From: an uncultured Bacteroidia bacterium
Lineage (GTDB): Bacteria; Bacteroidota; Bacteroidia; Bacteroidales; UBA932
Length of the DNA stretch: 64,000 bases
Direction: 5' to 3'
NCBI GenBank assembly: GCA_902782225.1
Contig: CACZMF010000005.1
Span: 1-64,000, forward strand
The position numbers and the translations under genes were made by a program. Below the pieces are notes generated by a model. That model saw nothing but the letters and a program-made list of their open reading frames with translations, made no database searches and was not told where the DNA came from. Positions 10,391-27,912 of this stretch are shown in pieces. The first letter of the stretch is position 1. The number at the start of each line of letters is the position of its first letter.

Positions 10391-10499
10391 GCCGTTTTCC
10401 GCAACTCCCTCAGTATCAACACCCTACAATTCTCCTGTGCTCCAAACGGCGCACAGGAGACGCAGTTGCGGCTGATTGTCAGGGACTTACGGAAAACGC
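10391..10499. repeat. REPIN-like palindromic element, copy A
   Basis: The core is TCTCCTGTGC (10431-10440), loop TCCAAACGGC (10441-10450) and GCACAGGAGA (10451-10460), a perfect 10-bp stem. Outside this, CGTTTTCCGCAACTCCCTCA on the left is matched in inverted form by TGTCAGGGACTTACGGAAAACG on the right. The element is therefore two inverted ~49-bp half-sites. It lies between two convergent genes. Its right end is shared with the terminator stem at 10494-10530. Copies B, C and D at 25371, 26716 and 27803 have the same architecture. Confidence 0.85.
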
Positions 10500-10530
10500 T
10501 CCCGCAACTGTTTCAGTCGGGGGAGCGTTT
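10494..10530. terminator. Bidirectional hairpin terminator between convergent genes
   Basis: AAACGCTCCC (10494-10503) pairs perfectly with GGGAGCGTTT (10521-10530), and an inner ACTG/CAGT stem lies between. It sits between the YiiX-like gene and eno, both of which end toward it. The T runs are short, so termination strength is uncertain. Confidence 0.5.
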
Positions 10531-10571
10531 GAGTCCCTGGGAAGCAGGGGAAATTGCCGTTCTAGACGAAA

Positions 10572-11882
10572 CTAGCGAAGCTTCTTGTAGCCGTACTGGC
10601 AGGTGTCACCGAGTTCCATCTCGATCTTCATCAGGCGGTTGTACTTGCAGATGCGATCGGTGCGGCTGAGGGAGCCGGTCTTAATCTGGCCGCTGTTGGT
10701 AGCAACTGCGATGTCGGCGATGGTGGTGTCCTCAGTCTCACCGGAACGGTGGCTGGTCACGGTGGTGTAGCCGTGGCGGTGGGCCATCTCGATGGCGTCG
10801 AGGGTCTCGGTCAGGGAACCGATCTGGTTGACCTTGATCAGGATGCTGTTGCCGGCGCCCATTTCGATACCCTTCTGGAGGTACTTCACGTTGGTCACGA
10901 AGAGGTCGTCACCCACGAGCTGGCAGCGGTCGCCGATAGCCTTGGTGAGCTTGACCCAGCCTTCCCAGTCTTCCTCGGAAAGACCGTCCTCGATGGAGTC
11001 GATGGGGTACTTGGTGATGAGCTGCTTGAGATAATTGATCTGCTGGTCGGTGCTGAGCCTGCGGCCGCGCGGATCCTTCTTCTTGCCGTCCTTGAGCTGC
11101 TTGTAGTCGTAGTAGAACTTGCCGTCCTCGCCCTTGAAGCAGAACTCGGAAGCAGCGCAGTCCATTGCGATTGTGATGTCCTTGCCGGGCTCCAGACCTG
11201 CGGCCTTGATGGCCTCGATGATGCAGTCGAGAGCATCGTTGATGCCCTTGAGAGCGGGAGCGAAACCGCCTTCGTCACCTACTGCGGTGCTGCAGCCGCG
11301 GTCCTTGAGGACCTTCTTGAGTGCATGGAACACCTCAGCGCCCATACGCACGGCCTCAGCCTCGCAGCAAGCGCCGACGGGACGGATCATGAATTCCTGG
11401 AACGCGATGGGAGCGTCGGAGTGGGCACCGCCGTTGATGATGTTCATCATAGGCACGGGGAGGACATAGGTGTTGGTGCCGCCGATATAGCGGTACAGGG
11501 GGATGTCGAGGTAATTGGCAGCAGCGTGGGCAACTGCGAGCGAAACGCCGAGGATGGCGTTGGCGCCGAGCTTGCTCTTGGTGGGGGTGCCGTCGAGCTC
11601 GATCATGGTCTTGTCGATGGCGCGCTGCTCGAGAGCGGACATACCGATGATGGCGGGAGCGATCACGTCGTTGACATTGGCGACTGCCTTGAGCACGCCC
11701 TTGCCGAGATAGCGCTTCTTGTCGCCGTCGCGAAGCTCGAGAGCTTCGTTTTCACCGGTGGATGCGCCGGACGGGACTGCTGCTACGCCTTTGATACCGG
11801 ACTCGAGGATAACCTCAACCTCAACTGTGGGATTGCCTCTGGAATCGAGGATTTCCCTACCTGTAACTTGAATAATTCTCAT
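10572..11882 (-). CDS. eno: Enolase
   Basis: This 436-residue protein is full length for bacterial enolase, which converts 2-phosphoglycerate to phosphoenolpyruvate in glycolysis. The N terminus [19 protein letters not shown], the phosphate-loop region [16 protein letters not shown], the metal ligands in AMDCAASEF and [11 protein letters not shown], and the C-terminal [19 protein letters not shown] are all present. It is transcribed alone: a -7 box lies at 11923-11930, and a REPIN-like repeat and terminator follow the stop. The strong codon bias matches a highly expressed gene. Confidence 0.97.
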
Positions 11883-11922
11883 AATATCTTTAAAAAATTA
11901 AGTGGTATTCTTTTTTGCCGCG

Positions 11923-11930
11923 CAAATTTA
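11923..11930 (-). promoter_or_regulatory. -7 promoter box for eno
   Basis: The minus strand reads TAAATTTG, 40 nt before the enolase ATG at 11882. No clear -33 TTTG is visible at the usual distance. Confidence 0.5.
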
Positions 11931-26713: not shown

Positions 26714-26715
26714 CT

Positions 26716-26824
26716 TCCGTTTTTCGTAACCCTCTGACACTCAGGCATAACTGTGTCTCCTATGCTCCAAACGGCGCATAGGAGATACGGTTTTTATTGA
26801 TTATCAGTGCGTTGCTAAAAACGT
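26716..26824. repeat. REPIN-like palindromic element, copy C (left flank of the transposase)
   Basis: TCTCCTATGC (26756-26765), loop TCCAAACGGC (26766-26775) and GCATAGGAGA (26776-26785) make a perfect stem. The left arm CCGTTTTTCGTAACC is nearly identical to the right arm of copy D read in reverse complement. It starts just after the stop of the hydrolase gene and ends 50 nt before the transposase ATG. Confidence 0.87.
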
Positions 26825-26874
26825 TTCCGAATGTCATTTTTTCTTCGTAAACTTGAGGACCAAAACGAAAGACT

Positions 26875-27816
26875 ATGAAAAGTAAGAAACGTTATTTCCT
26901 TTCCGGAATTCTTGCCCATCTGTATCAAAGAACACAAGATGGCTTCCTGTTATTTTACAATGACATCGATTATCTGGTGTATTTCACTATAATGTGTATT
27001 GTTGCGCCCAGATACGACATTCATGTCATTACCTCTTGCCAAATGCCGGATCATACCCACAGCGGAGTTGTGGCCCAGCGATTCCGTGATCTCGCATCAT
27101 TTATGCGCGACACATCAATGTGGTATGCGCGCTATGGCCAGGCGCCGCAGATGAAGCGGGGCGCTCCTCTTTATGATACGAGACATTATGGCAGTGCAAT
27201 GAAAATCGGTGCCAAGAAAGCCCGGACCAACATCGTTTATATCGGCAACAACCCCGTGGAGCGCCGTCTGGTCAAGACTGCGGAAGAGTATAGATGGAAT
27301 TTTCTTGCTTACGGTAAAGACAATCATCCTTTCTCTGTGCCATTGGTTGTCAGAAACGCATCTTGCGAAATGAAGAAGGCAATATCGGAAGTAAAAGACA
27401 CCCGCGGACGGGAACACCCTCTGTCTTACACGCAGATGAAACGATTACTGTCCAGATTGGATGCAATAGAAGCCGAGCAATTGATCGACTATGCAGTAAG
27501 TACGTATTCCGTAATTGATTATGAAACCGCCGCCAGCTTTTTTGATAGCTATGACGATATGATTGGTGCGATGCACTACAACACCGGAAGCGAATATGAC
27601 ATCAACGAAGTATTCGTTGGCCGTTCCGATGCCTGCTATGCTGAAATAAGCACCTGGCTAAAGCAGAATCTCCGAATTAAAGATGTCCATGATGTCTTCC
27701 TGATGGATGAGGACGCAAGGGTTGATTTGCTTTTCGATGTCCACAGAGGCATTGGTGCCGACCCGAAGCAAATAGCGAAATATCTTCGCCTAAAGGCTGA
27801 AGGCCGTTTTCGGTAA
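26875..27816 (+). CDS. REP-associated tyrosine transposase (RAYT-like, Y1/HUH)
   Basis: This 313-residue protein has a Y1 transposase (IS200-like) domain in residues ~1-150. MPDHTH gives the HUH metal-binding pair His 60/His 62, and VYIGNNPVERRLV contains the candidate catalytic Tyr 122, the same context as in RAYT proteins. Residues ~150-313 form an extension not typical of short RAYTs, ending with an HTH-like RGIGADPKQIAKYLRL. It stands alone, flanked by REPIN-like elements C and D in inverted orientation, and element D supplies its last four codons and stop. RAYTs are thought to mobilise REP sequences by single-strand cleavage; this role is inferred. It is AT-richer than its neighbours. 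A weak TAAACTTG box lies at 26848-26855. Confidence 0.85.
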   Translation: MKSKKRYFLSGILAHLYQRTQDGFLLFYNDIDYLVYFTIMCIVAPRYDIHVITSCQMPDHTHSGVVAQRFRDLASFMRDTSMWYARYGQAPQMKRGAPLYDTRHYGSAMKIGAKKARTNIVYIGNNPVERRLVKTAEEYRWNFLAYGKDNHPFSVPLVVRNASCEMKKAISEVKDTRGREHPLSYTQMKRLLSRLDAIEAEQLIDYAVSTYSVIDYETAASFFDSYDDMIGAMHYNTGSEYDINEVFVGRSDACYAEISTWLKQNLRIKDVHDVFLMDEDARVDLLFDVHRGIGADPKQIAKYLRLKAEGRFR

Positions 27817-27912
27817 AGTACTGACACTCAATATCTTCCTCATCTCCTATGCGCCTTTTGGAGCATAGGAGACACAGTTGTTGTTGATTATCAGATGGTT
27901 ACGAAAAACGGC
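27803..27912. repeat. REPIN-like palindromic element, copy D (right flank, inverted)
   Basis: TCTCCTATGC (27843-27852), loop GCCTTTTGGA (27853-27862) and GCATAGGAGA (27863-27872). The loop is the reverse complement of the loop in copies A-C (one change), so this copy is inverted. Read in reverse, its first half matches the left half of copy C closely through CCGTTTTTCGTAACC and AACTGTGTCTCCTATGC. Its left end begins inside the transposase gene and includes the stop at 27814-27816. Confidence 0.87.

Follow-up and report, generated by a model that had tools for sequence, protein, structure and literature searches.

The palindromic repeats described here lie in a stretch of 64,000 nt (contig CACZMF010000005.1, positions 1 to 64,000, hereafter the window) from an uncultured Bacteroidia bacterium, and they are likely to be non-autonomous mobile elements of a Bacteroidales clade of transposases known as REP-associated tyrosine transposases (RAYTs). 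REPs are repetitive extragenic palindromic sequences; doublets of them that form a hairpin are called REPINs, and a REPIN together with its RAYT makes up a REPtron. Judging from sequence, the elements of the window probably work as REPINs do in a REPtron, moved by their RAYT, and the tie to the transposase gene at 26875-27816 that a first, sequence-only reading of this DNA had proposed is retained here as the best interpretation. They are a REPIN/REPtron-like variant and are not filed as canonical REPINs, because the GTAG foot of the latter is missing from the window's family, called family A below. The features concerned are the following.

10391..10500, forward strand: family-A palindromic element, 110 nt, located past the stop of the C92-amidase gene at 9675-10388
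25369..25478, forward strand: family-A element flanked by the genes of an RsmD-like methyltransferase and an alpha/beta-hydrolase
26716..26825, forward strand: family-A element upstream of the RAYT gene and 3′ of the hydrolase stop codon
26757..26784, forward strand: central stem-loop of the 26716 element, comprising the family-A-specific inner stem and a tetraloop
26875..27816, forward strand: RAYT-like HUH/Y1 transposase gene, 313 aa, with DHTH (H60, H62) and with Y122 in YIGNNP
27803..27912, reverse strand: family-A element downstream of the RAYT gene

The four palindromes of shared plan had been recognized from the sequence alone; each proves to be 110 nt long, with two boundaries shifted by +1 nt and the second copy widened from 25371-25477 to 25369-25478, and the 27803-27912 copy is oriented oppositely to the other three. 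Their position between genes or at gene edges is equally borne out: the 10391 and 26716 elements each begin 2 nt past a stop codon, the 25369 element reaches from 9 nt past a stop to 2 nt short of an ATG, and the 27803 element covers the final 14 nt of the RAYT gene and provides its TAA stop. They form the first-listed direct-repeat family of the window and also pair as inverted repeats, the copies at 26716-26825 and 27803-27912 being an inverted pair, 80% complementary, around the RAYT gene. Folded as single-stranded DNA at the coordinates originally proposed (10391-10499, 25371-25477, 26716-26824 and 27803-27912), three elements are far more stable than their shuffles and the second moderately so (z-scores of -6.0, -2.5, -5.8 and -5.1, with 0, 6, 0 and 0 of 200 shuffles, respectively, folding as well or better). 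Of the plan first proposed, two inverted half-sites joined by a 10-nt loop, the half-sites stand, while the stem is not uniformly paired, the middle of each half-site being conserved by sequence, and the loop resolves into a tetraloop (AAAC or AAAA) enclosed by a CC/GG pair, together with a T.C mismatch. Compensating changes within the family did not hold up. The stem reads TGTGC/GCACA at 10391, TATGC/GCATA at 26716 and 27803, and TATGC/GCACA at 25369, which leaves an A.C mismatch, and the covariation score over 12 family-A copies was reached by 76 of 500 shuffles and is not significant; between families, such changes are overwhelming, as described below.

The description as a four-copy family fits the window and fails for the genome as a whole. 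In the 2.58-Mb assembly (34 contigs, 92% complete), BLAST places family A, full-length or partial, at 11 sites and a twelfth was found besides, giving 12 close full-length copies, and two further elements carry the family-A central stem, for a total of 14 with stem A. The covariance model that had been suggested as a check, here built from the 12 copies (R1), recovers them by construction and also reveals other palindrome families in the same genome. Two full-length paralogues of the window's RAYT gene, 49% and 40% identical to it, lie on contigs C15 and C24, each flanked by its own palindromes; these families, B and C, follow the same plan as family A with different inner stems (TCTCCTATGC in A, ACCCGATTGC in B and TTGCCTGCA in C). 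Near-identical copies of the RAYT gene were not found in this genome. Among the 29 places with E < 0.01, a weak match at C12:15206 (E 0.004) was left unclassified; the 28 classified elements, whose stems were assigned by eye, comprise 14 with stem A, 4 with B, 9 with C and one with none of these, so that 27 of the 28 carry a stem that also flanks a RAYT, and 20 of the 28 lie on other contigs or far from any RAYT. Only for the four window copies is an intergenic or gene-end location asserted, since simple open reading frame calling, which produces spurious long frames in this GC-rich genome, was unreliable for the context of all 28 elements. Element copies form an inverted pair at the RAYT locus L021, and those picked out by the repeat finder at L022 are direct. 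A 30-nt stretch of the window (2365-2394) is 77% identical to part of the 26716 element and is possibly a decayed half-site. On C14, at about 87.5-89.1 kb, a distant relative of the RAYT gene is enclosed by 93% identical repeats with GGGCAAGGTC palindromes (L023:1005-1120 and 2506-2621), which belong to a different repeat family with related copies on C11, C1 and C8.

The architecture of the elements was resolved from 90 aligned half-sites, contributed by 45 of 54 elements (52 places matched by R1 and two own-genome elements); near-duplicates and elements with disturbed arms were left out, and the R1 places excluded were two in L088, L078:3440, and L093, a duplicate of L092. Each half-site has three zones: an outer arm that starts with CCGT and otherwise varies between families, a core with the consensus TAAc-N3-CTGAtnaTCAg-N4-TTAc, and an inner stem that varies between families as well. 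The two outer arms of one element, and likewise its two inner arms, match each other far more than arms across loci do, and the core arms show no such excess within an element over different loci. In a gapless alignment (A4) of 32 elements of exactly 112 nt and common register, 84.5% of the cells of the outer and inner stems are paired, double-change cells number 297 against 104 expected from shuffles, and the covariation score is 0.783 against 0.210, a value reached by none of 500 shuffles. In the core, pairing from arm to arm across the long hairpin gives 77 double-change cells against 72 expected, and folding inside each half-site gives 50 against 57; neither pairing of the core is supported by covariation. 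The core is nevertheless symmetrical (TAA..TTA, CTGA..TCAG), with three or four of the four CTGA/TCAG positions paired in 38 of the 90 half-sites. Since covariation is found in the stems and not in the core, it is pairing that is conserved in the former and sequence in the latter. The percentage of paired cells and the core score (mean 12.5 of 18, against 7.6 in shuffled half-sites) are inflated, because the A4 elements were found with R1, which rewards both pairing and the family-A core; R1 scored core pairs as well, and yet no covariation appeared there. A scan of the RAYT loci for palindromes of any sequence showed the same core by eye, although it was run without a matched random control and one of its matches (L099) is an unrelated hairpin.

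The linked protein is of the RAYT type. Among 34 aligned members, H60, H62 and Y122 are invariant, all 34 match the NCBIfam family REP_Tyr_transpos (NF047646) at E 0.01 and 33 match Y1_Tnp at E 0.1, with the window protein below the curated cut-offs of both (26 bits for NF047646, where the cut-off is 80); no other Pfam family matches more than one of the 34. The best match in the PDB is 2xm3 (E 0.0025 over 45 positions of the HUH/Y1 nuclease core), which we take to be the ISDra2 TnpA. The C-terminal half, from about 150 to 313, matched no family in the searches of protein families. Nonsynonymous and synonymous divergence (dN and dS) are 0.011 and 0.172 between the window RAYT and that of L061, and 0.066 and 1.04 between those of L021 and L066, i.e., a dN/dS of about 0.06 in both pairs.

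A scan of GTDB genomes with three of these proteins yielded 43 loci, of which 38 are in records titled Bacteroidales, Bacteroidia or Prevotellaceae, many from ruminants; one further record bears the title Fibrobacter succinogenes (L083), and the remaining four loci (L100-L103) are weakly matching outsiders. Of the first 39 loci, 31 have an R1 match (E up to 1) no more than 350 nt from the RAYT gene, 13 of them on each side of it, and in six more (L067, L068, L074, L082, L084 and L097) the sequence-free scan shows a palindrome near the gene. The part of the element that tracks the divergence of the RAYT is the inner hairpin: when similarity between elements was compared with RAYT identity across the 26 loci that had both a protein row and a usable element, the latter lying as far as about 2.4 kb away, the Mantel r was 0.38 for the inner stem and 0.36 for the loop (each reached by none of 999 permutations), 0.06 for the outer arm (144 of 999) and -0.06 for the core (728 of 999), each locus comparison using its best-matching pair of elements. 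The outer arm was thus set aside overall as the RAYT-matching part. The closest pair, L066 and the C15 paralogue, are 88% identical and have their inner stem in common. One genome, G096, has eight RAYT matches, one of them partial, with differing adjoining stems, seven of which were read from matches to a second covariance model (one weak, L146, E 0.053) and one from the palindrome scan only; one of its RAYT genes adjoins a CCCTAGGG stem, which recurs in the four elements that were read at other places of the genome. This second model, R2, whose training set comprised 31 foreign elements and a single one of family B, recovers 12 of 12 family-A copies in the window's own genome.

Element presence follows RAYT presence across genomes. 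In a survey of 249 genomes of the family, with the RAYT alignment searched at 1e-20 and elements called by R2 at E 1e-4, a RAYT match was obtained in 62, of which 46 are strong (best E of 2.8e-64 or better) and 16 more distant. Elements were matched in 45 of the 46 strong-RAYT genomes and in 52 of the 203 others (Fisher 4e-21), and, within the window's genus, in 11 of 11 RAYT-positive and 1 of 20 negative genomes (Fisher 1.4e-7), these being trials that are not independent, as the genomes are related by descent. Because 15 candidates were scored per genome, element copy numbers saturate. The elements are not equally common with and without the transposase, and they number more than four in the genome; equal frequency, or four copies only, would have spoken against the initial proposal.

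Comparison with related genomes shows the elements to be discrete insertions. All four window copies occur at the same places in the close relative G249, 95-98% identical (98% for the 10391 element), which means that these insertions are not of very recent date. Between the same neighbouring genes, G293 lacks both the 25369 element and the entire 26716-27912 block, and in G253 a lone element with another stem occupies the position of that block. The family-C element at C21:10817 has an uninterrupted, base-precise empty site in G293: one gene ends there in a stop codon that overlaps the start of the next, while the element's first base completes that stop in the window's genome; matches in G207 and G096 also span the junction. 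At the same site, G292 and G271 (L189 and L190) hold an element with a third stem, and different-stem elements at one intergenic site suggest preferred insertion sites. At the C6:71137 site, G293, G292, G271 and G275 lack the element, with aligned flanks 12-26 nt apart. No target-site duplication was detected, either at the boundaries of 28 elements (longest repeat 2.9 on average against 3.1 in controls) or in the empty-site comparison at C21:10817, which does not match a miniature inverted-repeat transposable element of a DDE transposase. Three further observations concern these loci. In the interval of the window's 25369 element, between the RsmD-like and hydrolase genes, G292 has RAYT-gene-like fragments and an element (L137:3012-4004). 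At the site of the own-genome element C5:118417, G293 (L192) has 27 nt including AATAATCAAGC, which resemble part of the core and are perhaps a remnant or a chance likeness. Within 8146-28418, the window matches G249 at 97% identity from 8146 to 11958, drops to about 84% (11963-24805) and rises again to 91.5% (24815-28215), steps of the kind expected of recombination between species.

Several results weigh against the elements being REPIN-like passengers of these RAYTs. The expectation that copies would occur only with the transposase is not borne out, as 52 genomes yield one or more element matches in spite of lacking a strong RAYT match, 11 of them being among the 16 with a distant RAYT. The exception within the genus, G041, is about 100% complete and has 39 both-strand matches without a strong RAYT; the five elements read in it (L152-L154, L169 and L171) share one CGGGT-type stem, and a looser search returned only distant RAYT-like proteins (best E 1.4e-17). 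That looser search covered 20 genomes, namely 19 with elements and no strong RAYT, and G181, which has a strong RAYT and no elements; among the 19, no strong match emerged (best 2.8e-20) and four gave no match at all. Gene loss or assembly gaps are possible reasons for elements without a strong RAYT. At the RAYT loci themselves, 8 of 39 have no R1 match within 350 nt, and at L065 and L095 neither R1 nor the sequence-free scan finds a palindrome. The foot tetranucleotide of the core is GTAA in 20 of the 90 half-sites and GTAG in one, and the half-site, as stated above, shows no covarying hairpin of its own. Finally, co-inheritance alone could give the correlation between stem and RAYT, which is a pairing of stem and gene, not yet recognition.

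The REPtron remains the closest known system (Bertels and Rainey 2011, PMC3116915; biochemistry of group 2 and 3 RAYTs in PMC8266576). The window's elements share with it a short, non-autonomous and self-folding inverted doublet, i.e., two inverted units forming one hairpin, a linked RAYT-type HUH/Y1 protein that is not itself multiplied, dispersed copies tied to RAYT presence, and several families per genome, each with its own RAYT. They differ in a core foot other than GTAG, a half-site core kept by sequence without supported pairing, a family-specific inner stem that tracks the RAYT, a length of about 110 nt and a RAYT of about 310 aa. It could still be argued that they are canonical or 'double-foot' REPs with GT[AG]G-footed units and the usual recognition, the inner hairpin being a mere spacer or stem. 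The inverted doublet, the linked RAYT, the several families and the homology to REP_Tyr_transpos would all agree with this, and so would the element ends, which begin with a conserved GT (G in 94% and T in 86% of the 90 half-sites) and read GT[AG]G in 26 of them; counted over the first 41 positions, 34 half-sites contain GT[AG]G where shuffles give 18.5, and none of 500 shuffles is as high. In the published 'double foot' of subclass 2.4 (PMC6006769), to which part of the clade is possibly linked, GT[AG]G opens the element at its 5′ end and the reverse complement closes it at the 3′ end. The GTAG foot of REPINs is, however, absent from the core and, in the window's family, from the ends also: the ends read GTTT in family A, GTGA in B and often GTGG in C, and the core foot of the window's family is mostly GTAA or GCAA, so that GT[AG]G as a REP foot is found only in part of the clade and not in the window's family. 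Moreover, conservation in family A is highest at the centre, whereas the spacers of Pseudomonas REPINs are less conserved than their REPs (PMC3116915); the inner stem correlates with the RAYT, and a hairpin within the half-site shows no covariation. A canonical assignment is thus rather unlikely, without being far-fetched.

The published subclasses nearest to this clade also come from Bacteroidetes (Quentin et al. 2018, PMC6006769). Subclass 2.4 shares YIxNNP and long elements that bear GT[AG]G at one terminus and the complementary tetranucleotide at the opposite one, like the 26 half-sites above; its table row gives a median of 194 aa, NH[IFV]H and WQ, and its REPs are often intragenic. The present proteins differ from it in length, HUH motif and W site, and families A and B in the lack of GT[AG]G ends. 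Subclass 2.6 shares atypical flanking structures without GT[AG]G that have copies elsewhere in the genome, and its row lists a median of 179 aa, NH[LIV]H, WQ and YIH[QN]NP. The aligned proteins are instead 285-314 aa long; of the 34, 30 carry DHIH and 4 DHTH, 28 have F in the position of the W, and 32 fit Y[VIL]xNN[PA] (the window protein has 313 aa, DHTH, Y at the W site and YIGNNP); the table sets them apart from subclass 2.6, although the flanking structures may overlap. By these motifs and this length, the ~310-aa clade is unlike every row of the published subclass table. IS200/IS605 insertion sequences have the HUH/Y1 nuclease core in common with it and differ in that the gene does not spread here as an insertion sequence with its ends, near-identical copies being absent from the genome.

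The palindromes might also be the self-complementary terminal inverted repeats (TIRs) of a TIRYT-like gene, with the dispersed copies as remnants or by-products. RAYT-like genes between long and partly self-complementary TIRs, with moderately abundant dispersed TIR families, have been described as TIRtrons (Di Nocera et al. 2013, PMC3733652), and both the 80% complementary pair of the window and the L021 pair place a RAYT gene between long inverted repeats; G293, moreover, lacks the whole block. On the other side stand the 20 of 28 elements that lie away from a RAYT, the lone element of G253 where the window has the block, and RAYT paralogues only 40-49% identical, which means that the block is not now multiplying as a unit. 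The GGGGWSAS motif, present in the repeats of many published TIRtron/TIRYT examples (PMC3733652), is found in none of 54 elements and none of 12 family-A copies, and the shared bipartite core, the stems covarying across many loci and the commonness of lone elements are further differences; we regard this origin as improbable. Still less credible are immobile host palindromes, such as terminators or protein sites, with an incidental RAYT nearby. The four window copies and several others lie just past stop codons, where they could end or stabilize transcripts, but Rfam at E 1 returns only a tRNA in window positions 1-30000 and nothing for the palindromes, element presence follows the RAYT, and the empty site is precise, with a different-stem element at the same place in other genomes.

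Under the preferred REPIN-like interpretation, an element of about 110 nt would consist of two inverted half-sites, closed by the outer stem and joined by the inner hairpin. The RAYT, as an HUH/Y1 single-strand nuclease, would act on the element in single-stranded form, for instance on the lagging strand, and the core TAAc-N3-CTGAtnaTCAg common to all families, perhaps with the conserved GT of the ends, would stand in for the classical GTAG foot and hairpin. Which RAYT acts on which element would be determined by the family-specific inner hairpin, a choice perhaps mediated by the extra C-terminal half of the protein, and the product would be a discrete unit inserted, often at gene ends, without target-site duplication.

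Several palindrome families, each with its own RAYT and its own central hairpin, suggest parallel lock-and-key systems. A bolder version, which we put forward tentatively and consider less probable than not, is that these are orthogonal mobilizers of single-stranded DNA, in which any RAYT of the clade processes a fixed core while its C-terminal half reads a fast-changing hairpin, such that up to eight RAYTs in one genome would maintain separate populations of elements without crosstalk, competing for the same insertion sites. The published RAYT-REP biochemistry considered here concerns GTAG-footed REPs of Proteobacteria (PMC8266576), and a literature search for elements of this type in Bacteroidales brought up only PMC6006769 and PMC3733652 as near, a result that leaves absence unproven as subscription papers were mostly outside its scope. 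One bacterial family offers dozens of natural RAYT-element pairs, in which evolution appears to have separated a common core from a variable, RAYT-tracking hairpin. This separation makes it testable what decides the match between a RAYT and its element and what purpose the extra half of the protein serves, and the empty sites show that the elements are discrete insertions differing between Bacteroidales species.

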